Source: Gammaproteobacteria bacterium (GTDB lineage Bacteria; Pseudomonadota; Gammaproteobacteria; Steroidobacterales; Woeseiaceae). From it: 64,000 nucleotides of DNA. Below the pieces are notes generated by a model. It ran no database searches. It was not told the DNA's origin and worked only from the letters and a program-made list of their open reading frames with translations. Where the stretch lies: the NCBI GenBank assembly GCA_029863125.1, contig JAOTWB010000005.1:1-64000 (forward strand), in the 5' to 3' direction. This document shows positions 5,470-62,117 of this stretch, piece after piece. The translations under genes and the position numbers were made by a program. The stretch's first letter is position 1. Each line of letters starts with the position of its first letter.

Positions 5470-6681
5470 GCGCCGGTATTCCCGCAGCGCCATTACGCGC
5501 GCTCGATGAATGGCCGTTGAAATTTTCGATGCTCTGCTGGCGCCGGCGATGGCGCCCGCATCGACTGCGGCCGCGGCTGCCAGCGCGCCTCGCAGGTAGT
5601 CGGCCTGCGGATAAGATCGATTTTCGAGGCCACCGCGGCCACGCGCATCGGCTTCGCAAGTTATCAGAAACTGTTCGAATCGCTCCGGGCGCCTGAACGC
5701 GTCGGTACCTTCCAAAACCTTGAGAAGCGTTCCGGCACGCAGCTCGAGCGCCCGATGACAGTGCGTGTGAAATTCGGCGGCAAGCAGCGCGAGGTCGCGA
5801 CAGGCATTCGGCACGGGTAACCGGCTCGCGATTTGGCGTATAAGTTTACAGCCGCGACGCTCGTGTCCCGGGTGGCTCGGCAATCGATAGCCGGGTGTGT
5901 TGCCTTTGCCGAGGTCGTGCGTCAGCGCGGCGAAACGAACTTCGAGATCGTCACTGAGTGCTTCTGCCTGGTCGAGCACCAGGAGCACATGGACACCGGT
6001 GTCGATTTCAGGATGCCACTTTTTCGGCTGCGGCACGCCGAACAGCGCATCGACTTCGGGTAGCAGGATTTTCAATGCACCGCAGTCGCGCAGCACTTCA
6101 ACATAGGTTCGAACGCTCCGGCCTGCCAGTGCCGCCGCTGTCTCCTGCCAGACTCGATCCGGCACGAGTGCGTCAACTTCTCCGTCCAGGACCATCTGCC
6201 GCATCAGCTGCATCGTCTCGGGTGCAATCGTGAAATCCAGGTGCCTGAACCTGGCCGCGAATTTTGCGACGCGAAGTATCCGAACCGGGTCTTCGGCAAA
6301 GGCATCGGACACGTGCCGCAGCACGCGCTCCTGAATGTCCTTTACACCGCCAAACGGATCTATCAGCTTGCCGCCGGCGTCTTTGGCGATTGCGTTAATC
6401 GTCAGGTCACGGCGTAACAGGTCGTCTTCAATCGATACGTCCGGCGAGCAGTCGAATGCAAAGCCGTGGTAGCCCGGTCCAGTCTTGCGCTCCGTGCGGG
6501 CGAGCGCATATTCCTCGCCGGAATCCGGATGTAGAAAAACCGGAAAGTCTTTGCCGACCTGCCTGTATCCCTGCGCGAGGAGTTCGTCGGGCGTGGCGCC
6601 CACAACGCACCAGTCCCGCTCGTTGTGCGGAATGCCAAGCTGTTCATCCCGAACAGCGCCACCGACAAGGTATACCTGCAT
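5437..6681 (-). CDS. cca: CCA-adding tRNA nucleotidyltransferase with HD domain
   Basis: Adds or repairs the 3' CCA end of tRNAs without a nucleic acid template. The 414-aa protein starts [12 protein letters not shown], the class II nucleotidyltransferase signature. [10 protein letters not shown] near residue 110 and [12 protein letters not shown] near 150 belong to the head and neck domains. A C-terminal HD phosphohydrolase domain carries [10 protein letters not shown] near residue 255, as in the multifunctional gammaproteobacterial enzymes. Length matches that group. The gene stands alone on this strand, convergent with the beta-barrel gene and divergent from the aminopeptidase gene 62 bp away. 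Confidence 0.95.
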
Positions 6682-12321: not shown

Positions 12322-12337
12322 ACACAACATCTTGTGT
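12322..12337 (+). promoter_or_regulatory. NrdR box at the nrdJa transcription start
   Basis: ACACAACATCTTGTGT matches the 16-bp NrdR consensus (acaCwAtATaTwGtgt) at 14 positions and is a near-perfect inverted repeat. It lies a few bases downstream of the predicted start, where a bound repressor would block transcription. No clear second box was found at the usual spacing of about 31 bp. Confidence 0.65.
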
Positions 12338-12484
12338 CTAATCAACGACAGAAAAGAGGCCGAAACGGCTCTCGCCGCGCGTTTTCTGGCCGCCGGCGAG
12401 CGGGACTCTTTTCGCTTGGGAAAAGCTGGCGATAATAACGGTCTTGGGGTCTCCTTCAGGGAGTTCAGGGGAGTAAGTGCAGCA

Positions 12485-14641
12485 ATGAAGTCTGCCGTAA
12501 ATTTGGATAGACGCGCGGTTACCGACATCGAATTTCAACCAGCATCGCTCGATATCTGGGATGCAAAGTATCGACTCTCGGCCAAAGACGGCACGAGTAT
12601 CGATACGTCGATTGACGACACCTACAAACGTGTGGCCAAGGCGCTCGCGAATGTCGAGGCGGAGCCAAAGCGCGAACACTACTACGAGGAGTTTCTTTGG
12701 GCGTTGCGCAGCGGCGCGATACCAGCAGGCCGCATCATCTCGAATGCCGGGGCTCAGGCGCACAAACCGGCGACGTCTACGATCAATTGTACGGTGTCGG
12801 GTACGGTCGGTGACTCGATGGATAATATCCTCAACAAGGTGCACGAGGCTGGCCTGACGCTGAAAGCAGGCTGTGGCATTGGCTACGAATTTTCGACGCT
12901 GCGCCCCAAAGGCGCCTACGTGACGGGCGCGGGAGCCTACACGTCGGGTCCGCTGTCGTTCATGGATATCTACGACAAGATGTGTTTCACGGTATCGTCG
13001 GCAGGCGGTCGCCGCGGTGCGCAAATGGGCACCTTCGATGTGGGTCATCCCGACGTCATGGAGTTCATTCGCGCCAAGCGCGAAGACGGCCGTTTACGGC
13101 AGTTCAACCTGTCGCTGCTGGTGACCGACGAATTCATGCAGGCGGTCATCAATGAAGATGACTGGAAGCTCGCTTTTCCGGTGACGCCGAAAGAGGTCGA
13201 AGACGACAATCTCGACGTCACCGACAGGAAAATGTTTGTCTGGCGCGATTGGCCCGAGGCCGGCAACTATGTTGCCAACGCGGAAGGGCTCGTCGCGTGC
13301 AAGGTATACAAAACAATGCCGGCGCGCCGCGTCTGGGAACTCATCATGGCGTCGACCTACGATTTCGCGGAGCCAGGTTTCGTGTTGATCGACAAGGTCA
13401 ACGAAATGAACAACAACTGGTTCTGCGAGAACATCCGCGCGACCAATCCCTGCGGCGAGCAACCGCTGCCGCCTTATGGCTCGTGCCTGCTGGGTTCGAT
13501 CAACCTGACTCGATTCGTCGTCAAGCCCTTCAGCGACGAAGCCCGGTTTGACTGGGAGAACTTCAGGAAGGTCGTCAAGACATTCACGCGCATGCTCGAC
13601 AATGTCGTGGAAATCAACGGCCTGCCGCTGCCACAACAGCGCAACGAAATTCTGCGGAAGCGCCGGCACGGCATGGGCTTCCTCGGTCTCGGGTCGACGA
13701 TTACGATGATGCGTATGAAGTACGGTGATGCCGAGGCGGTTGAATTCACGGAAGAAATCGCGCGACAGCTGGCGTTGGCCGGCTGGGAAGAGGCGCTCGA
13801 GCTGGCGCAGGAAAAGGGCCCGGCGCCGATCATGAATGAGAGCTTTGAAGTCACGGAAAAGATGCTGCGTCGGCGTCCGGAAATGCGCGCGGATGGCTAC
13901 CAGGTCGGCGACAAGGTACCGGGCCGTATCCTGCACGCGCGCTACAGCCGTTACATGCAAAGAATTGCCGCCGAGGCGCCGCAACTCGTCGAGCAGCTGG
14001 CTGAGACCGGGGCGCGGTTTTCGCATCACAGCTCGATTGCACCGACAGGCACTATTTCGCTGTCACTGGCGAACAATGCGAGCAATGGCATCGAACCGAG
14101 TTTCGCGCATCATTACTTCCGCAACATTATTCGCCAGGGCAAAAAGACCAAAGAAAAAGTCGACGTCTTTTCGTTCGAGTTACTTGCTTATCGCGGGCTG
14201 GTCGACCCGGATGCAATGCCGGCCGGCACCGGGAACGATGCTGCCGCGAATACGTTGCCGGACTACTTCATTACTGCTGACGAGGTCACCCCGACTCAGC
14301 ATGTGGACATCCAGGCCGCGGCACAAAAGTGGATCGACTCATCGATTTCGAAGACGGCAAATGTACCGACGGAATATCCGTACGCGGATTTCAAGGACAT
14401 ATACCTGTATGCCTACAAGCAGGGGTTGAAGGGGTGTACGACATTCCGTTTCAATCCCGAAGCATTCCAGGGCGTGCTCGTCAAAGAAAAGGATTTGAAG
14501 AACACGAAATACACGTTCACGCTGGAAGACGGTTCGACGGTCGACCTCAGGGGCGATGAAGAGATCGAGTACGACGGCGAAGTTCACACGGCGGCGAATT
14601 TGTTCGATGCGCTAAAAGAAGGCTACTACGGAAAGTTCTAG
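12485..14641 (+). CDS. nrdJa: Class II (B12-dependent) ribonucleotide reductase, catalytic subunit NrdJa
   Basis: Reduces ribonucleotides to deoxyribonucleotides with adenosylcobalamin as radical source, without needing oxygen. I chose the ATG at 12485 (718 aa), which follows GGGGAG; the open frame extends upstream into the leader. Key residues are visible: Cys102 in STINCTVSG and Cys334 in YGSCLLGSINL as the redox pair, and the radical Cys323 with Glu325 in NPCGEQPL. The segment APTGTISL belongs to the substrate phosphate-binding region. There is no N-terminal ATP cone. The normal C-terminal part of NrdJ is missing and is encoded by the next gene, whose ATG directly follows this stop. This is the split arrangement known in Pseudomonas aeruginosa. 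Confidence 0.93.
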   Translation: MKSAVNLDRRAVTDIEFQPASLDIWDAKYRLSAKDGTSIDTSIDDTYKRVAKALANVEAEPKREHYYEEFLWALRSGAIPAGRIISNAGAQAHKPATSTINCTVSGTVGDSMDNILNKVHEAGLTLKAGCGIGYEFSTLRPKGAYVTGAGAYTSGPLSFMDIYDKMCFTVSSAGGRRGAQMGTFDVGHPDVMEFIRAKREDGRLRQFNLSLLVTDEFMQAVINEDDWKLAFPVTPKEVEDDNLDVTDRKMFVWRDWPEAGNYVANAEGLVACKVYKTMPARRVWELIMASTYDFAEPGFVLIDKVNEMNNNWFCENIRATNPCGEQPLPPYGSCLLGSINLTRFVVKPFSDEARFDWENFRKVVKTFTRMLDNVVEINGLPLPQQRNEILRKRRHGMGFLGLGSTITMMRMKYGDAEAVEFTEEIARQLALAGWEEALELAQEKGPAPIMNESFEVTEKMLRRRPEMRADGYQVGDKVPGRILHARYSRYMQRIAAEAPQLVEQLAETGARFSHHSSIAPTGTISLSLANNASNGIEPSFAHHYFRNIIRQGKKTKEKVDVFSFELLAYRGLVDPDAMPAGTGNDAAANTLPDYFITADEVTPTQHVDIQAAAQKWIDSSISKTANVPTEYPYADFKDIYLYAYKQGLKGCTTFRFNPEAFQGVLVKEKDLKNTKYTFTLEDGSTVDLRGDEEIEYDGEVHTAANLFDALKEGYYGKF

Positions 14642-15349
14642 ATGATCAAAATCGACAAAAAGATAGTTGGCTATGCGGTCAGCCAGCCGGCCGCCGAACA
14701 GGAAGTGGCAAAACCCGAATTCAGGCGTGAGGGCGGCGGGGGTAGTCGCGCGGAAGTAATTCGCATGCACGAAAAGCTCGAGCGACCGGAGATGCTGGTT
14801 GGCTCGACCTACAAGGTAAAGACACCGGTGTCCGATCATGCAATGTACGTCACGATCAATGACATCATATTGAATGAAGGCACCGAACACGAAAAACGTC
14901 GCCCGTTTGAAATTTTCATCAATTCCAAGAATCTGGATCACTATCAGTGGATCGTGGCGTTGACCCGCATTATCTCGGCCGTTTTCCGTAAGGGCGGCGA
15001 TGTGACCTTCCTGGTCGAGGAACTCAAGGCGGTTTTCGATCCGCGCGGCGGTTACTGGCAGACCGGTGGCCGTTTCATGCCGTCGATCATCGCCGAGCTC
15101 GGCCACATCGTTGAGAAACACCTGATCATGATTGGTCTGATGGCGGCCCCGACGCTCGGCGAAGAGCAGAAAAAACTGATCGCTGAAAAGCGCGCCGAAT
15201 TCGAGGAGTCGAGAAAGCAGCAGGATGCTTTTTCGGCCAGCGAGTACCCCGAAGGTGCGCAACTCTGCAGCAAGTGCAATACAGTGGCCGTCATCATGAT
15301 GGACGGTTGTATGACTTGTCTCTCTTGCGGCGACTCTAAATGCGGCTGA
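14642..15349 (+). CDS. nrdJb: NrdJb, C-terminal part of split class II ribonucleotide reductase
   Basis: Protein of 235 aa corresponding to the C-terminal region of single-chain NrdJ enzymes. The middle (about residues 60-150) resembles the TSCPD-type domain, with FEIFINSKNLDHYQW and FDPRGGYW. The end is a Cys-rich zinc-ribbon-like tail, with CSKC, then CMTCLSC and a final SKCG. This tail supplies the cysteines that re-reduce the active site in the family. The start codon abuts the nrdJa stop, so the two are almost surely made together. The P. aeruginosa enzyme needs both subunits; I infer the same here. Confidence 0.9.
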   Translation: MIKIDKKIVGYAVSQPAAEQEVAKPEFRREGGGGSRAEVIRMHEKLERPEMLVGSTYKVKTPVSDHAMYVTINDIILNEGTEHEKRRPFEIFINSKNLDHYQWIVALTRIISAVFRKGGDVTFLVEELKAVFDPRGGYWQTGGRFMPSIIAELGHIVEKHLIMIGLMAAPTLGEEQKKLIAEKRAEFEESRKQQDAFSASEYPEGAQLCSKCNTVAVIMMDGCMTCLSCGDSKCG

Positions 15350-15350
15350 T

Positions 15351-15477
15351 CTGAGAGCGCGTCTGGTCGGCACGCTACTTTGTTAAAAACGGCCTCGAAC
15401 TGCTCATGTACGCATCTGTACACTGCGCGTTCTCGGCCGATTTCGTCGCGTATCGTGCGCAACAGCCGCACTCTCAG
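15351..15477. repeat. 127-bp full-length imperfect palindrome, MITE-like
   Basis: The element begins CTGAGAGCGCG and ends with the inverted copy CGCACTCTCAG. Comparing the sequence with its own reverse complement, about 39 of the first 61 positions match with a single one-base shift, so the whole element can fold into one long hairpin. The tip is TGTAC (15407-15411) and GTACA (15418-15422) around a six-base loop. It fills the gap between nrdJb and hldE. It has no transposase and no obvious target duplication. No second copy was noticed in this window. It could be a miniature inverted-repeat element or an unusually long 3' hairpin. Confidence 0.6.
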
Positions 15478-15539
15478 AATCCCCGCTACCGGGAACGCGC
15501 TCAGGACTTGAGGCACACGCTCATGGTAGATTTCATGCC

Positions 15540-16958
15540 GTGACCATTCGCATTCCCGATTTCTCCAAGGCCCGCGTCGTCGTCGCTGGCGACGTTATGC
15601 TCGATCGCTACCTGTTCGGATCAACGGCTCGAATTTCCCCTGAAGCACCGGTGCCGGTCGTGCACGTGCGGGAAACGGATAATCGGCCGGGCGGCGCTGC
15701 AAACGTGGCGGTAAACCTGGCCAGCCTCGGCGTATCGACCTGCCTGCTCGGCGTGGTAGGTGAGGATGCAGCGGGCGAATCGCTGGAGTGGCTCCTGGAC
15801 CAGCGCGGCATCAGCTGCAGGTTTGCCCGCGTTACGGATCGCCCCACGATCACCAAGACACGCGTTCAAAGTCGCGGCCAGCAGCTCATTCGCCTTGACG
15901 AAGAAAACGCCGCGGCGTTGCCGGGCGATGCGATGGCCAGGATGCTTCGCGAAGCTCTAGACGGCGCCGGCACCGCGGTCTTGTCCGACTACGGAAAAGG
16001 TGCGCTTGCCGACATTCGTGGCCTGATCAAGGTTTGTCGAGACGCCGGTATTCCGGTATTGGTAGACCCGAAGGGCACTGATTTCAGCAAATACCGCGGC
16101 GCATCGCTCATAACGCCGAACCAGACGGAGTTCGAGGCGGTGGCGGGAGCTTGTGCCACCGACGATGAACTTGTTCGTCGTGGAATACAGATGATCGACG
16201 AACTCGATCTGGATGCTTTGCTCATCACACGCAGCGAAAAGGGCATGCTGCTCCTCGAGGCCGGCGCAGAACCAGTTTTTCTTTCAACGCAGGCGCGAGA
16301 GGTTTACGACGTAACGGGCGCCGGTGACACGGTCATCGGGGCGCTCGCCGGGGCGCTTGCCAGCGGACAGGATCTTGCATCGGCAGCCGCGCTCGCCAAC
16401 CTGGCGGCCGGGCTGGTCGTGCGCAAGATCGGTGTCGCGGCCGTCACCCCGGGCGAGCTTAGCGTGGCGCTGCATCAGCGCGGACAGGGCGGGCGGGGGC
16501 TCGTTGGTCCGGACGAATTGCTCGCGATGGTTGCGGAATCGCACCAAAGAAATGAACGCGTCGTCATGACCAACGGCTGCTTCGACGTCCTGCACGCGGG
16601 GCATGTCGCCTACCTGGAAGAGGCCAAAAGCCTCGGCGATCGCCTGATCGTGGCCGTCAACGATGACGATTCAGTGCGGCGGCTCAAGGGTGCATCCCGT
16701 CCCATCAACACGCTTGAAGACCGCCTGCTGGTATTGGCAGGACTGGCCGCGGTCGACTGGGTGGTGCCGTTCACGGAGGACACGCCGGCGGCACTTATCG
16801 CAAAGATCCTGCCGGACGTGCTAGTCAAAGGCGGCGACTACAATCCGGACGAAATTGCCGGCGCCAAAGAGGTCCTGCGGAATGGCGGTGAAGTTCGCGT
16901 ATTGTCATTCAGAGACGGTCACTCCTCGAGTCGCATTATCGACAAACTGCGCGACTGA
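15540..16958 (+). CDS. hldE: Bifunctional heptose kinase/adenylyltransferase HldE
   Basis: Makes ADP-heptose precursor for the LPS inner core: D-glycero-beta-D-manno-heptose 7-phosphate kinase plus heptose 1-phosphate adenylyltransferase. Of 472 aa, residues 1 to about 320 form a ribokinase-like domain with RPGGAANVAVNLASLG, and the catalytic Asp in VTGAGDTVIG. Residues from about 340 form a nucleotidyltransferase domain with TNGCFDVLHAGHV (HxGH type) and the end motif SSSRIIDKLR. Translation begins at a GTG, because the nearby ATG at 15535 meets a stop at once. The waaA gene follows after 22 bp, giving an LPS-core pair. Confidence 0.95.
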   Translation: MTIRIPDFSKARVVVAGDVMLDRYLFGSTARISPEAPVPVVHVRETDNRPGGAANVAVNLASLGVSTCLLGVVGEDAAGESLEWLLDQRGISCRFARVTDRPTITKTRVQSRGQQLIRLDEENAAALPGDAMARMLREALDGAGTAVLSDYGKGALADIRGLIKVCRDAGIPVLVDPKGTDFSKYRGASLITPNQTEFEAVAGACATDDELVRRGIQMIDELDLDALLITRSEKGMLLLEAGAEPVFLSTQAREVYDVTGAGDTVIGALAGALASGQDLASAAALANLAAGLVVRKIGVAAVTPGELSVALHQRGQGGRGLVGPDELLAMVAESHQRNERVVMTNGCFDVLHAGHVAYLEEAKSLGDRLIVAVNDDDSVRRLKGASRPINTLEDRLLVLAGLAAVDWVVPFTEDTPAALIAKILPDVLVKGGDYNPDEIAGAKEVLRNGGEVRVLSFRDGHSSSRIIDKLRD

Positions 16959-23220: not shown

Positions 23221-25263
23221 TTACAGCAGTGGGACCATCAGGAGAGCAACGATGTTGATGATCTTGATCAGCGGGTTGATCGCCGGCCCAGCGGTATCCT
23301 TGTAAGGATCGCCGACGGTGTCACCGGTAACCGCCGCTTTGTGCGCGTCGGATCCCTTGCCGCCAAAATTTCCGTCTTCGATGTATTTCTTGGCGTTGTC
23401 CCAGGCGCCGCCGCCCGCCGTCATCGAGATCGCGACGAACAGGCCGGTAACAATCGTACCGAGCAGCAGGCCACCGAGCGCTTTGGGACCCAGCAGCAAT
23501 CCGACGACAAGCGGCACGCCGATCGGCAGGAGCGATGGAACGACCATCTCCCTGATTGCGGCTTTGGTCAACAGGTCAACGGCACGGCTGTAGTCCGGCT
23601 TTCCGGTACCTTCCATGATCCCCTCAATTTCCCGAAACTGCCGGCGGACTTCCTGGACAACGGATCCCGCAGCGCGGCCAACGGCTTCCATCGCCATCGC
23701 TCCGAACAGGAACGGCACCAGCCCGCCGAGGAACAGTCCGATAATGACGAGGTGGTCGTTCAACAGGAACTCCACGATAATGCCTTCCTGCTCCAGCGCG
23801 TTGGTGTAATCGGCAAATAAAACGAGAGCAGCGAGGCCGGCAGATCCGATGGCATAACCCTTGGTTACCGCTTTCGTCGTGTTGCCGACGGCATCCAGCT
23901 GATCGGTGATCTTGCGAATCTCAGGCGGCAGGTCTGACATCTCGGCGATGCCACCGGCGTTATCGGTAATTGGACCGAAAGCATCGAGGGCAACGACGAC
24001 GCCGGTCATAGACAGCATGCTTGTCGCCGCAATTGCGATGTTGTAGAGACCCGCGAGGTTATTGCCTTCCGGCGCCAGGGCAAATGCGCCCCAGATGCTT
24101 CCGCAAACAGCCAGCACTGGCAGCGCCGTCGCTTTCATCGAGATACCGAGACCCGCGATGATATTGGTTGCGTCACCGGTTAGCGATGCTTCCGCAATCG
24201 TCTTAACAGGCTTGAAGTCGGTGCCCGTGTAGTACTCGGTAATGACCACCATCGCCGCCGTGAGGCCAAGGCCGATCAGCGCCGAATAGTAGATGCTCAT
24301 AGCGGCACCGCTGCCGCCCATCATCATGTCGGTAATAAAGTAGAAGGCAATGGCTGCGAGTATTCCTGCAACGATCATGCCCTTGTACAAAGCCCCCATG
24401 ACTTTGCCGCCCTCGGAGGTATGAACGAAGAACGTGCCAATGATCGACGCGACGATAGATACGGCACCCAGCACAAGCGGGTAAACAACCGCTTCGGGTC
24501 CGTAGCTGGCCGTGAGGAGTCCGCCAAGCAGCATGGTCGCAATGATGGTTACGGCGTAGGTTTCAAACAGGTCAGCCGCCATACCCGCGCAGTCGCCCAC
24601 ATTGTCGCCGACGTTATCGGCGATTACACCGGGGTTGCGGGGGTCGTCTTCCGGAATTCCGGCTTCGACTTTGCCGACCAGGTCGGCGCCGACATCCGCA
24701 CCCTTGGTAAAGATACCGCCGCCGAGTCGAGCGAAGATCGAAATAAGCGAGCCCCCGAACGCCAACCCGACAAGTGCGTGAACGGCTTCGTCAGAGCTGG
24801 CGCCCCTGCTGGTCAGGATCAGGAAGTAGCCGGCGACGCCGAGGAGGCCGAGGCCAACCACGAGCATTCCGGTAATCGCGCCGCCGCGGAACGCGACGTT
24901 CAATGCCGCGTTGACGCCCTTGGATGCGGCTTCGGCCGTGCGGACGTTGGCGCGCACCGAAACGTACATGCCTATGTATCCGGCGAGTCCCGAAAATATG
25001 GCACCGATCGCGAAACCGATGGCGGTAGTCCAACCCAGCGGCGAAAAACCGAGTACGAGCATCACAACGACGCCGACCATTCCAATGGTCATGTACTGGC
25101 GATCCATGTAGGCTTTCGCGCCTTCCTGGATTGCCGCAGCGATTTCCTGCATGCGGCTGCTGCCGGCAGGTTGCTTGAGGATCCACAGCGTTGAAACAAT
25201 TCCGAACAGAACTGCGAGCGCACCCGCAAGGATCGAGAGACCCAAGGCCAACTCGTTAGACAT
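23221..25263 (-). CDS. hppA: Membrane proton-pumping pyrophosphatase, K+-independent type
   Basis: Integral membrane enzyme of 680 aa, with about 16 helices expected, that couples hydrolysis of PPi to ion pumping. The PPi/Mg site motifs are clear: [16 protein letters not shown] near residue 185, [19 protein letters not shown] near 215, and [19 protein letters not shown] at the end. The segment [16 protein letters not shown] carries Lys where K+-dependent enzymes have Ala, which indicates the K+-independent, H+-pumping class. A good ribosome site (AGGAGA) precedes the ATG. The PPi-dependent phosphofructokinase gene lies 181 bp upstream on the same strand, so PPi is used by both products. Confidence 0.95.
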
Positions 25264-36666: not shown

Positions 36667-37980
36667 CTAGTAACGATAATGCTCTGCCTTGTACGGACCG
36701 TTCTGGTCGACGCCAATGTACCTGGCCTGTTCATCGGTCAACTTCGTGAGTTTCGCACCGACACGGCCCAGGTGCAGGCGCGCGACTTTTTCGTCGAGAT
36801 GCTTGGGCAGGACGTAGACCGAATTCTCATACTGGTCACCGTTATGCCAAAGCTCTATCTGGGCGAGAACCTGGTTTGTGAAGGAATTGGACATCACGAA
36901 GCTCGGGTGGCCGGTACCGCAGCCGAGGTTCACGAGGCGACCCTCGGCCAGCAGGATCAGGCGTTTTCCGTCGGGGAATATGACGTGGTCCACCTGTGGC
37001 TTGATGTTTTCCCACTGGTATTTCTTCAGGTAGGCAACATCGATTTCATTGTCGAAATGGCCAATGTTGCAGACAATCGCCTGATCGCGCATGCGCTCCA
37101 TTTGCGGGCCGGTGACTACGTGGTAATTGCCGGTCGCCGTCACAACGATGTCGACCCGGTCGCAGACTTCGTCGAAGTCGACAACGGGAAAGCCCTCCAT
37201 CGCGGCCTGCAGCGCGCAGATCGGATCGACTTCGGTGACCCACACAATGGCGCCGAGAGACCGCAATGATTGTGCGGAACCCTTGCCAACATCACCGAAG
37301 CCGCAGACAACAGCGACCTTGCCTGCAACCATCACGTCGGTTGCGCGCTTGATGCTGTCGACCAGGGATTCCCTGCATCCGTAGAGGTTGTCAAACTTGG
37401 ACTTGGTCACCGAGTCGTTGACGTTGAATGCCGGGCACATCAGCGAGCCGTCGGCCATCATGTTATACAGGCGCTTGACGCCCGTCGTTGTTTCCTCGGA
37501 CAGACCTTTGACGCCTTTCATGATCTCGGGATACTTCTCATGCATGACCATCGTGAGGTCGCCGCCGTCATCGAGGATCATATTCGGGTGCCAGCCGTCC
37601 GGGCCGTTGATGGTCTGCTCGACACACCACCAGTACTCGTCCTCGGTTTCGCCTTTCCAGGCAAACACAGGGATGCCGGCCGCAGCAATAGCCGCTGCCG
37701 CATGATCCTGGGTGGAGAAAATGTTGCAGGACGACCAGCGTATATCGGCGCCGAGCTCGCTCAGCGTCTCGATCAGAACTGCCGTCTGAATCGTCATGTG
37801 CAGGCAGCCGGTCAGGCGCACACCCTTCAGCGGGAGCTGGCCTTTGTATTCCTCGCGCAGCGCCATGAGACCAGGCATTTCCGTCTCAGCAATCGCGATT
37901 TCCTTGCGGCCCCAGTCGGCGAGCGCAATGTCGGCGACCTTGTAGTCCTTCTTCTGAATAGCAACAGCTTTGCTGCCCAT
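36667..37980 (-). CDS. ahcY: S-adenosylhomocysteinase
   Basis: Hydrolyses S-adenosylhomocysteine to homocysteine and adenosine, removing the product inhibitor of methyltransferases. The 437-aa protein has the substrate motifs [19 protein letters not shown] near 55 and [13 protein letters not shown] near 190. The NAD site is [20 protein letters not shown] near 225, and the end is PYKAEHYRY, the conserved C-terminus. It is 19 bp downstream of metK, so SAM synthesis and SAH removal are coexpressed. No SAH riboswitch was seen in the short gap. Confidence 0.97.
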
Positions 37981-59642: not shown

Positions 59643-60139
59643 TGCGATCTGTCCCGTGCGGACAGCACCAGCTCACATACCTCGCGAACCGCACCGAGGC
59701 CACCGGGCGCAGACGTCGTGTAGTCGCAGTGCGCACGCACGGCTTCGACGGCGTTAGCGACGGCAATTGAGATGCCAACGTGTTGCAGCAGCGGCAGGTC
59801 CGGAATGTCATCGCCGACGTACGCACATTCGGGCGCAGTGATACCCAGCGATTCGAGGATACTGTCTATTGCTGCCACTTTGTCATCGCAGCCTTGCACC
59901 ACATGCCGCACGCCCAATTCGGCCATGCGCCGCTCGACGGCGTCGGATCGTCGGCCGCTGACCACGGCGACTGCGACGTTGGCGTTGATGAGTTTTCGAA
60001 TGCCGAAGCCATCATGCGTGTGAAAAGCCTTGGTCTCGACGCCGTCGTCGGAAACGTAAAAGCGGCCGTCCGTGAACACGCCGTCGACGTCGAAAGCGAC
60101 GAGACGAACGCCGGCGAGTTTACTGCCGATATTGTTCAC
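59639..60139 (-). CDS. kdsC: 3-deoxy-D-manno-octulosonate 8-phosphate phosphatase KdsC
   Basis: HAD-type phosphatase that makes Kdo for the LPS core. The 166-aa protein carries the nucleophile motif LVAFDVDGVFTDGRFYV near residue 14. HTHDGFGIRKL, AVVSGRRSDAVERRM near 57, and the metal-binding AYVGDDIPDLPLL near 110 follow. It starts at a GTG that overlaps the kdsD stop (GTGA) and ends inside the lptC start, so this part of the operon is tightly coupled. Confidence 0.95.
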   Translation of the reverse strand: MNNIGSKLAGVRLVAFDVDGVFTDGRFYVSDDGVETKAFHTHDGFGIRKLINANVAVAVVSGRRSDAVERRMAELGVRHVVQGCDDKVAAIDSILESLGITAPECAYVGDDIPDLPLLQHVGISIAVANAVEAVRAHCDYTTSAPGGLGAVREVCELVLSARDRSQ

Positions 60140-61119
60140 ATTAGGCCTTCGCGAAACAGGTCGTGAATATTCAGCGCGCCAACCAGCGTGCCGCTTTCGT
60201 CGACGACGAGCAAAGAGGTGATCTTGTATTCTTCGAGCAGATGAAGCGCTTCGGCGGCAAGTACGTCCGCCGTCGTAGTCTTGCAGTTGGTGTGCATCAC
60301 GTCGCGAATGATGGTCGAGCGAACATCCGCGCCGGCATCCAGCGTCCGCCTGAGGTCTCCATCCGTAAAGATACCCATTACCTTGCTGTTCGAATCGACG
60401 ATAGCGGTCATGCCAAGGCCCTTGTCGGTCATTTCAAAAAGCGCGTCGCGCAAGGTTACATCGGCGCTGACGGCCGGTATGCGATCGCCGCTGCGCATGA
60501 CGTCTGCGACTCGCAGCAGCAGGCGCTTGCCGAGATTGCCTCTGGGATGGGATCGCGCGAAATCTTCGGCCGTGAAGCCACGATTCTTGAGCAAAGCGAC
60601 GGCCAGAGCGTCACCCATTGCGAGCGTGGCTGTCGTGCTTGCAGTGGGTGCGAGATTCAGCGGGCACGCTTCTTCGCTCACACTGACGTCGAGATGAACG
60701 TCGGCCGTCTTCGCCATCGTTGAATTCGGGTTCCCGGTCATCGCCAGCATTTTCGCCCCCATGCGTTTGACCGCCGGAAGTATCGTGATGACTTCCTCGG
60801 TTTCACCGGAATAGGAAATGGCAAGAAGCAAATCGTGTTTCGTGATCATGCCGACGTCGCCATGGCTGGCCTCCGCGGGATGCATGAAAAATGCGGGTGT
60901 TCCCGTCGATGCCAGCGTTGCAGCGATCTTGTTACTGACATGACCGGATTTGCCCATACCGGTGACGACGATGCGACCGGGTGTCTCCATGCACAGCTGG
61001 CAGGCGGCCACAAAATCGTCGTTGAGGCGAGATTTCAGGTTTTTCACGGCTCGTGATTCGATGTCGAGAACTTCGGCAGCGAGCGCGAGTAATTCGTCGT
61101 TTGTCAGGGCGTCAGGCAA
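60136..61119 (-). CDS. kdsD: Arabinose-5-phosphate isomerase KdsD
   Basis: Converts ribulose 5-phosphate to arabinose 5-phosphate, the first Kdo precursor. Of 327 aa, residues about 40-175 form a SIS sugar-isomerase domain with VVTGMGKSGHVSNKIAATLAS and AISYSGETEEVI. Two CBS domains follow (about 205-325). The only reasonable start is a TTG at 61119, with GAGAG upstream. It sits 33 bp after yrbG and begins the coupled kdsD-kdsC-lptC-lptA-lptB series. Confidence 0.95.
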   Translation of the reverse strand: MPDALTNDELLALAAEVLDIESRAVKNLKSRLNDDFVAACQLCMETPGRIVVTGMGKSGHVSNKIAATLASTGTPAFFMHPAEASHGDVGMITKHDLLLAISYSGETEEVITILPAVKRMGAKMLAMTGNPNSTMAKTADVHLDVSVSEEACPLNLAPTASTTATLAMGDALAVALLKNRGFTAEDFARSHPRGNLGKRLLLRVADVMRSGDRIPAVSADVTLRDALFEMTDKGLGMTAIVDSNSKVMGIFTDGDLRRTLDAGADVRSTIIRDVMHTNCKTTTADVLAAEALHLLEEYKITSLLVVDESGTLVGALNIHDLFREGLM

Positions 61120-61151: not shown

Positions 61152-62117
61152 CTATAGGTTTTGTGCAACGACGTATGAGTCGTAAGCAATAAAGGCGACG
61201 AGCAGTGCCAGGCCCTCCAGGCGCGACAGCTGGGCCTTGCCGTCGGAGTTGTAGGACATGGCGAATAACACCAGCGTAAAGGCGGCCATGACAAAGACGT
61301 GCAATGACAGCACCGTCGGCGCGAGTGCGGCAGGCTCGATGGTGGACGCGACGCCGATGACAGCGAGCAGGTTGAAGATATTCGAACCTACGATGTTGCC
61401 GATCGCGAGTCCGTACTCGCCTTTGAGTGCGCTCGCGAGGGACACGGCGAGTTCCGGGAGGCTGGTACCGAGCGCGACGATCAGGATGCCGATCACGACT
61501 TCGCTAATGCCAAGCTGCGTCGCAATACCGATTGCGCCGTCGACCAGCAGGTCCGCACCGATAAGCAGCGTGCCGAGACCGACGAGTAGCCAGATGATGG
61601 CCATCGTCATGCTGACGTCGGTCGGAATTTCCGCCTCGTAGTCTCGCTTGATCGGATCATTGGCGGCCGACGTCAACCCCAGGCGAGCCAGCCAGATCAT
61701 GACAATGACAAGCCCGGTTAGCAGCACGATGCCGTCGATGCGGCTGAGATAGGCGTCGAGAAACAGCGATACGGTCAGAAGCGTGACGGCGAGCAGGGCC
61801 GGCATCTCTCGTCGCAGCGTCTCCGACTCCAGGCTGATCGGCCGAATCAAGGCGGTAATCCCCAGGACCAGCCCGATGTTGACAATGTTGGAACCCAGTG
61901 CGTTGCCGATGGCAAGTCCCGGCTGCTTCTGGCTGGCTGCCACCACCGACACGAGAATTTCGGGCGCCGACGTCGCGAATGCTACGATCGTCAGGCCGAT
62001 CAGCAGAGGCGCGACGCCGAGGTTACGGGCAGTCGCTGCCGCGCCATGAACGAACCGATCGGCGCCCCACACGAGCAGGAAGAGTCCGGCGATGACCAAC
62101 AGGATGTTGCCAAGCAT
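61152..62117 (-). CDS. yrbG: Calcium/sodium:cation antiporter YrbG family
   Basis: Inner-membrane exchanger of 321 aa with about ten helices. The two alpha repeats are visible: GLTIVAFATSAPEILVSVVAA near 42 with GNALGSNIVNIGLV, and VALGTSLPELAVSLASALKG near 215 with GNIVGSNIFN. These line the ion path in the CaCA superfamily. It leads the kdsD-rpoN gene string and is divergent from ibaG. The ion pair used here is not known. Confidence 0.93.
   Translation of the reverse strand: MLGNILLVIAGLFLLVWGADRFVHGAAATARNLGVAPLLIGLTIVAFATSAPEILVSVVAASQKQPGLAIGNALGSNIVNIGLVLGITALIRPISLESETLRREMPALLAVTLLTVSLFLDAYLSRIDGIVLLTGLVIVMIWLARLGLTSAANDPIKRDYEAEIPTDVSMTMAIIWLLVGLGTLLIGADLLVDGAIGIATQLGISEVVIGILIVALGTSLPELAVSLASALKGEYGLAIGNIVGSNIFNLLAVIGVASTIEPAALAPTVLSLHVFVMAAFTLVLFAMSYNSDGKAQLSRLEGLALLVAFIAYDSYVVAQNL

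Follow-up and report, generated by a model that had tools for sequence, protein, structure and literature searches.

Of the repeats described in bacteria, the closest known kind to the element studied here is the MITE, with examples such as Chunjie of Geobacter, NEMIS/Correia and QMITE of Coxiella. The element is a hairpin in a 64,000-nt stretch of a gammaproteobacterial contig (hereafter "the window", meaning that whole stretch), and we find it to be one copy of a larger family. Judged against the sections consulted of two papers (PMC10969869, PMC3733652), MITEs and members of the family are alike in being short, interspersed and mostly intergenic, in having a long inverted-repeat structure and, in the genomes where the family is amplified, in having terminal inverted repeats and target duplications. 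The family differs in where its constancy lies, at the centre of the hairpin and not at its ends, and in that one and the same centre occurs with different ends, with 4-, 5- and 8-bp duplications and in several phyla.

Two other kinds of intergenic repeat bear comparison. R178, from the R0-R200 families of Pseudomonas fluorescens, is 101 bp long, has an internal inverted repeat and is present in 18, 28 and 9 copies in three strains, according to the consulted sections of PMC2718517. Compared by description only, it resembles our family as a Pseudomonas intergenic repeat, and may be the identity of the family in Pseudomonas. The ERIC/IRU repeats (RU-1) of enterobacteria are intergenic imperfect palindromes, as is the hairpin in the window. 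They are also 127 bp long, as stated in the part of PMC2759123 consulted, which is the length of the window copy. This agreement in length looks like a coincidence; one Pseudomonas copy of the family (not the window copy) had no match at E <= 0.01 in an E. coli collection.

REP and REPIN sequences with their RAYT proteins, and TIRtrons with TIRYT, are hairpin repeats whose spread is attributed to a protein that recognises single-strand hairpins, as set out in the consulted portions of PMC3733652 and PMC6006769. Members of our family are likewise hairpin DNA repeats and often lie downstream of genes. However, a REP is a palindrome of 20-40 bp with a GTAG tag, whereas the family unit is several times longer and its consensus has no visible tag; moreover, REP sequences have a dedicated Y1 transposase, whereas Y1 was not found in several copy-rich genomes of the family. 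The attC sites of integrons have RYYYAAC and GTTRRRY boxes in attC order, together with an integrase. By description, they are like the family in being hairpins of variable sequence with conserved unpaired features, one strand of which folds better, but their conserved parts are the outer boxes, whereas the family has a conserved apex and mostly scattered copies. We did not find the apex sequence in the consulted portions of PMC10969869, PMC2718517, PMC3733652, PMC6006769 or PMC4853749, and among the papers listed by a search of the open literature there was none of relevance to the family. Since subscription papers were outside the scope of that search, we regard the family as apparently undescribed, and do so provisionally.

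The hairpin downstream of nrdJb

The hairpin lies one base after the stop codon of nrdJb and 62 bases before the called start of hldE (15540), the product of which combines a PfkB kinase with a cytidylyltransferase (Pfam). Both gene names come from an earlier, sequence-only reading of the window. The features of the region are:

12332..14641, + strand: RNR large-subunit gene (nrdJ-like); ORF with a provisional start codon; Pfam Ribonuc_red_lgC, E 1.3e-130
14642..15349, + strand: nrdJb; ORF of 235 aa with a TSCPD domain (E 5.7e-9); stop TGA at 15347-15349
15351..15477, no strand assigned: hairpin element; the - strand gives the more stable fold by RNA and DNA MFEs
15367..15468, + strand: match to covariance model R1; cmsearch, 70.0 bits, E 3.3e-16
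15401..15428, + strand: constant apex, TG CTCATGTAC GCATCT GTACACTGCGC; exact family pattern at 15403-15428
15404..15406, + strand: TCA, the 5' side of a 3 x 4 internal loop, with the 3' side, CTGC, at 15423-15426; loop taken from the family consensus (alignment A3)
15407..15411, + strand: TGTAC, the 5' strand of the apical stem, which pairs with GTACA at 15418-15422 around a loop at 15412-15417; K/M pair of the family matched in 204/204
15540..16958, + strand: hldE; ORF; Pfam PfkB, E 1.4e-47, and CTP_transf_like, E 1.6e-18

The sequence-only reading had placed a full-length hairpin with CTGAGAG/CTCTCAG ends at 15351-15477, and the fold, which runs from end to end, bears this out. The RNA MFE is -53.9 kcal/mol for the + strand (z -4.57) and -63.8 kcal/mol for the - strand (z -6.83), and for neither strand did any of 200 dinucleotide shuffles do as well; with DNA parameters, the corresponding values are -28.2 (z -2.73, 1 of 200 shuffles as good) and -34.6 (z -5.26, 0 of 200). 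The single-sequence fold of this copy puts additional pairs within the 3 x 4 internal loop. The same reading had counted 39 of 61 half-positions as self-complementary. Without gaps we counted 31 of 63 (composition-shuffle mean 16.0, maximum 28 in 2000), and could not recover the higher figure because the stem contains bulges. Five other 127-nt segments of the window reach ungapped scores of 32-34, and at least three more reach 31; it is the folding test, not the ungapped count, that sets the hairpin apart from chance. Four of the five higher-scoring segments were folded (60082-60208, 24545-24671, 61650-61776 and 36689-36815), and their RNA fold z-scores are only -1.0 to -2.7. A lone chance palindrome is excluded by this test together with the family and covariation tests described below.

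Rfam 15 gave no match above the gathering score in the window or in six loci with other copies, and three weak Rfam hits in 15000-15900 all fall outside the hairpin. A terminator of unusual length had also been suggested for the element; a T-tail scan for intrinsic terminators (a G+C-rich stem followed by a T run) gave 0 in 15000-15900 and lends it no support. The strand statistics given below likewise offer no help to an mRNA-stabilising structure, which the sequence-only reading had proposed as well.

A constant apex in a variable stem

The sequence-only reading missed the main point, namely the conservation of the hairpin tip across phyla. Side-by-side reading of relatives from the genus and order, collected by blastn, showed a constant tip and a variable stem. 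The family can be described as a constant apex, TGCTCA-T(K)TAC-N3..9-GTA(M)A-CTSCGC, within a variable and imperfect hairpin of roughly 100-190 bp. We searched for it with the pattern CTCATKTACN{3,9}GTAMACTSCGC, using the reversed pattern as a control. The apex pattern is present in 36 of 398 sampled genomes of the phylum and in 10 of the 60 genomes of the relatives search, the genome of the window being included in both counts, and the reversed control gave 0 in each. With one extra leading base, the pattern occurs in at least 118 stretches of a species-level contig collection. Matching records include ones titled Pseudomonas, Halomonas, Salinicola, Nitrosomonadales, Mariprofundales and Rhizobium, and further ones titled Alistipes, Prevotellaceae, Bacillota MAG and Oceanirhabdus (a clostridium); the pattern is also carried by records named as Bacteroidota and Bacillota.

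Copies can be numerous. Among 50 genomes that were picked for holding a copy, such that the numbers do not speak to prevalence, there are 169 copies in the 2.3 Mb of G062, 80 in G066, 77 in G089 and 68 in G063; G227, which comes from the 398-genome sample and was not picked for copies, has 176 in 2.0 Mb. The covariance model R1, at E <= 0.1, has matches in 19 of the 60 genomes (that of the window included). Its sole match in the window at E <= 10 is that at 15367-15468, in a copy that was one of the 62 sequences used to build the model. The genome of the window (G000) has two R1 matches, the second being a decayed copy at C33:4018-4120 (E 1.5e-10), a few bases past the stop of another ORF. By blastn there is no good second copy in this genome (next best E 0.025), and the exact pattern finds one copy only. 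The earlier reading had named a single copy with steady decay in relatives as the mark of a chance structure; we found instead a second copy by R1, and relatives that keep the stem by compensating changes.

Copies sometimes stand in short arrays of 2-4 units about 90-170 bp apart, as in L083 (300-1111) and L122, from Mariprofundales, and in L418, from one genus relative (G031:C196:29827-30240). In G086 (Rikenellaceae, L253-L268), many units have a common right-hand extension in which there is another small hairpin, GGGGATGGCTAA...TTAGTCATCCCC; the left arm differs in some of the copies, and we regard these units as composite. A phage or plasmid origin was considered and rejected: a phage collection gave no match for the window copy or for one Pseudomonas copy, and a plasmid search gave 0 matches for the window copy and eight records for the Pseudomonas one. 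In a viral contig collection, 12 stretches contain the apex pattern; one of these contigs (L383) has two apices in opposite orientation, at 64-89 and 6247-6272, about 6 kb apart.

On the strand of the search pattern, the consensus apex reads GC-TCA-T(T/G)TAC-loop-GTA(A/C)A-CT(C/G)C-GC, and comprises a 5-bp stem, a 3 x 4 internal loop with fixed letters, and GC/GC; outside it there are weaker consensus blocks, GCGTT and GCCTTG. The apical K/M pair is matched in all 204 distinct copies (150 T-A, 54 G-C), with a search pattern that permitted T.C and G.A, and with copies from the same genome being non-independent. The stem was assessed in alignment A3, which has 19 pairs and 62 of 102 diverse copies, copies whose arms carry large insertions or are off-type having mostly been dropped by eye. 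In A3, 89.1% of cells are paired, as compared with 33-51% when slid, and there are 207 double-change cells versus 62.6 in shuffles (0/500); counted by pair, double changes occur in 13, with no excess over shuffles (12.4; 269/500). For 90 diverse copies (167 copies reduced by similarity), we compared each copy's own arms with swapped arms; the medians are 40.5 and 6.0, respectively, and 72 of the 90 exceed the 95th percentile of swaps.

The nrdJb site allows the stem to be followed at one position. We collected 30 genus loci (that of the window and those of 29 of 36 relatives) and read the nrdJb end in all but G016. A unit follows the nrdJb stop in six of the 29 readable ends (G000, G003, G023, G024, G029 and G035), nrdJb is followed by hldE without a unit in eight (G002, G004, G009, G010, G011, G014, G015 and G028), and the remaining 15 have other neighbours. 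A unit is also found behind nrdJb in G054, from another family, and in L156, from a gammaproteobacterial MAG, giving eight genomes. This occupancy reflects either descent with losses or recurrent insertion at the stop codon. The relative that scores best by protein, G009, is without the unit, and G023, also 96% identical, has it. The nrdJb-hldE junction of G009 has, in place of the CTGAGAG/CTCTCAG hairpin of G000, a short inverted repeat, CTGAG-ACCCG-CTCAG; this could be a remnant or a pre-insertion site. In an alignment of the eight nrdJb-site copies (A4, 48 pairs), 88.8% are paired, versus 27-47% when slid, and 32 of the 48 pairs are doubly changed, versus 14.6 in shuffles (0/500); the first five of these copies alone give 20 of 52, versus 9.3. 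Invariant columns make up 17 of 22 in the apex and 14 of 99 in the arms, a comparison that somewhat favours the apex because G035, G054 and L156 first surfaced through the apex model or pattern.

The two strands of the hairpin are not equivalent. The complement of the apex strand is the better folder in 79 of the 90 diverse copies with RNA parameters, and in 81 with DNA parameters. Mismatches on the apex strand as written are pyrimidine-pyrimidine in 646 cases and purine-purine in 177, and are therefore mostly purine-purine on the complement. Wobble pairs in the stem favour neither strand (249 G.T versus 219 A.C, p 0.18). Because the complement is the better-folding strand, and because there is neither a wobble bias nor a clear bias in apex orientation, we read the pairing as DNA-level; these observations point indirectly to maintenance of the stem as DNA. 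A replication-strand bias is expected if DNA is read in a strand-specific manner, and the tally over three genomes counts against it, with no clear bias at 49:41 (G101 26:16, G071 16:21, G099 7:4); we place no weight on this tally, which was made by hand on the assumption that replication starts at base 1 and ends half-way round, and which omits G081, a genome of uncertain contig orientation.

Position, target duplications and the search for a mover

The position of copies relative to genes was tallied with a crude, purpose-made ORF caller, in loci with a G+C of at least 55% only. Of 58 copies, 38 lie between tandem genes, 8 between tail-to-tail genes and 6 between head-to-head genes, with 6 overlapping a called ORF; the corresponding control gaps number 102, 29 and 53. 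Head-to-head gaps are thus under-used (6 of 52 copies versus 53 of 184 control gaps). Neighbours at 56-59 nt from the core are found for 17 of 54 that face the element with their stop versus 1 of 50 that face it with their start, such that stops cluster at the boundary of the element, as expected if unit ends supply or target TAG or TAA. The apex strand is that of the tandem genes in 23 cases and the opposite one in 15, with no clear orientation bias.

The suggestion, made from the sequence alone, that the hairpin is a non-autonomous mobile element is supported for the family, which is multi-copy and, in some other genomes, has terminal inverted repeats and duplications of 4, 5 or 8 bp. At the nrdJb copy itself no target duplication can be recognised, and the copy has the look of a long-standing resident. 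Terminal inverted repeats are common to the copies within each of G063, G062 and G227, whereas the window copy shows hairpin ends only. Copies in G063, a Bacillota MAG, have the ends GAGGTTGTTCAAAAAGG...GAACAGGCTC in common and are flanked by varying 5-bp duplications (TGATA, TATAA, TTATA, TACTA). Duplications of at least 5 bp were found in 12 of 19 G063 copies (11 of 5 bp and one of 6 bp; one, in L241, is mis-registered); the shuffled control, taken over all 187 copies, gave 25 in 935 trials. In G062, a Nitrosomonadales MAG in which the ends are TCTTACTGTG, 3 of 9 copies have 4-bp YTAN duplications (TTAT, TTAG, CTAT). A further set of ends, GTAACTACTCAG, accompanies 8-bp duplications in L122, from a Mariprofundales MAG (AAATCTTC), and in G227, where seven copies are readable at both sides and where, by eye, the 8-bp duplications are ACATCAAG in L377 and GGTGGTTC in L376, with 7/8 in L369. 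The same apex is therefore found with target duplications of no fewer than three lengths. Since these lengths of 4, 5 or 8 bp go by lineage, different transposases seem to move units that have a single apex in common.

Outside these genomes the duplications are less telling. Many Pseudomonas-type copies terminate in YTAR, which is weaker evidence of duplication because CTAG and TTAA are palindromic. In a set with one copy per contig, duplications of at least 4 bp occur in 15 of 106 copies, barely above the control (84 of 935 shuffled trials); they occur in 0 of 15 copies in G086, and in 14 of 38 in the remaining mixed group, where some are internal repeats. Because the mixed set barely exceeds the control, it is the amplified families that carry the case for mobility from target duplications. 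Two remnants deserve mention. L285 (2340-2380) reads TAGTA, GAGGTTGTTCAAAAAGGCTC, TAGTA, one end being joined to the final bases of its counterpart, and L278 (700-830) has a short end remnant flanked by duplications; both suggest that the hairpin was deleted between its arms.

A search with PF01609 and PF01797 in these fragmented genomes revealed no autonomous transposon with matching ends among the matches listed. There is no DDE_Tnp_1 match at E <= 0.001 in G062, and at the one DDE locus with any matching end, L350, that end is single and has no inverted partner in its flanks. An autonomous IS with the ends of the G063 copies was a candidate that we rejected: the unpaired ends (13 stretches among those listed) are for the most part hairpins in which the apex or the partner end is mutated, along with short remnants. 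At a threshold of E <= 1e-3, 9 of the 21 genomes that bear copies have no Y1 (PF01797) match, among them G065 (42 copies), G086 (35) and G089 (77), and an apex lies within the flanks of about 1.5 kb of only 1 of 30 Y1 loci. These two counts rule out Y1/RAYT as a general mover, and Y1/RAYT proteins do not seem to be required for the family. We know of no protein that reads the apex.

Explanations for the constant apex

The family consists of imperfect hairpins with an almost invariant apex and a stem that is paired through compensating changes, in multiple interspersed copies; where amplification is recent, the unit as a whole is bounded by terminal inverted repeats and by target duplications of 4, 5 or 8 bp, depending on the lineage. 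We consider it probable that the hairpin in the window is a long-resident copy of this widespread, non-coding and MITE-like family, with resident DDE-type transposases acting at the ends of units and the apex serving as a cis module of the folded strand. Different resident DDE-type transposases would move whole units from their ends, and the apex would be a separate cis module, recognised as a folded strand by a factor that is widely present among bacteria. Indeed, the constancy of the tip across several phyla, with stems and ends that vary, suggests that something in many bacteria reads it, and a widespread reader would explain why the apex is kept in every lineage. We favour folded DNA over RNA as the form in which it would be read, either as a cruciform or as a single strand, namely the complement of the apex as written. 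A bolder proposal is that the apex is a universal cis signal, folded DNA read by a putative factor in Pseudomonadota, Bacteroidota and Bacillota, and that miniatures of unrelated DDE families each acquired it since it raised amplification or survival. We put this forward as a possibility that is itself rather doubtful; if true, it would make the apex a transposition module that crosses families and phyla.

If the reading of a MITE-like family with an apical cis module is right, one hairpin tip would be common to mobile repeats that differ in their duplications and ends, in several phyla and at up to 170-odd copies per approximately 2 Mb, and would offer a testable case of a widespread DNA (or RNA) hairpin-recognising factor that controls the spread of small repeats. 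The pattern and covariance model permit annotation of a repeat that Rfam does not name, and the 3' end of nrdJb provides a syntenic site at which the evolution of the stem can be followed.

Alternatively, the apex might itself be mobile or recombining, with a putative recombinase moving or swapping the inner hairpin between palindromes or MITEs, such that arms and duplications are those of the invaded element. This would account for an inner part that is constant within an outer part that differs by lineage, and for the G009 junction, where a short CTGAG/CTCAG repeat stands in place of the hairpin. We think it unlikely, however, given that apex and arms travel together within G063, G062 and G227, and that a search with six end families in 1.52 Mb of loci found no apex-less arm pair except one short G063 interval (L278) and units with a mutated apex, a null result that is weak because most loci were chosen for holding an apex. 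An explanation at the level of RNA also seems improbable. The hairpin would then be transcribed at the 3' end of genes, would stabilise or terminate the mRNA, and would have spread as a MITE and been kept for that function. Strong RNA folding, the clustering of stops at the element boundary, the under-use of head-to-head gaps, and copies behind nrdJb and, by eye, behind 5S rRNA-like (L132) and tRNA-like (L015) ends are all consistent with such a role. Nonetheless, the scan found no T-run terminator at 15000-15900, the wobble counts lean towards neither RNA strand, the strand that folds better shows no preference for the direction of tandem genes, and a terminator needs no apex that is fixed across phyla.

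Lastly, the stem may be maintained by mutation only, with template-switch correction of a quasipalindrome keeping it paired and no function being selected. Template switching can yield covariation in a stem without selection on structure, and is reported to create and maintain hairpins in the consulted portion of PMC8794818. The doubly changed pairs with few one-sided intermediates are as this would predict, and template switching can account for doubly changed arms without selection, but not for a fixed imperfect apex: the mismatched 3 x 4 loop persists although correction would erase mismatches, and the letters of the apex are near-identical across phyla. Although copies were mostly found via the apex, it is also kept in nrdJb-site copies that were found by position. 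As a complete account of the family, we regard maintenance by mutation as very improbable.

In two species of another genus (L361 in G177, L364 in G443), short-armed copies lie directly behind a gene with a product that ends in CGSGKKYKQCHGKI, which, by eye, we take to be the SecA C terminus; this is possibly another fixed site like nrdJb. By eye, copies in L132 (Photobacterium) and L186 follow sequence that resembles the 3' end of 5S rRNA, and the copy in L015 lies behind a tRNA-like end.
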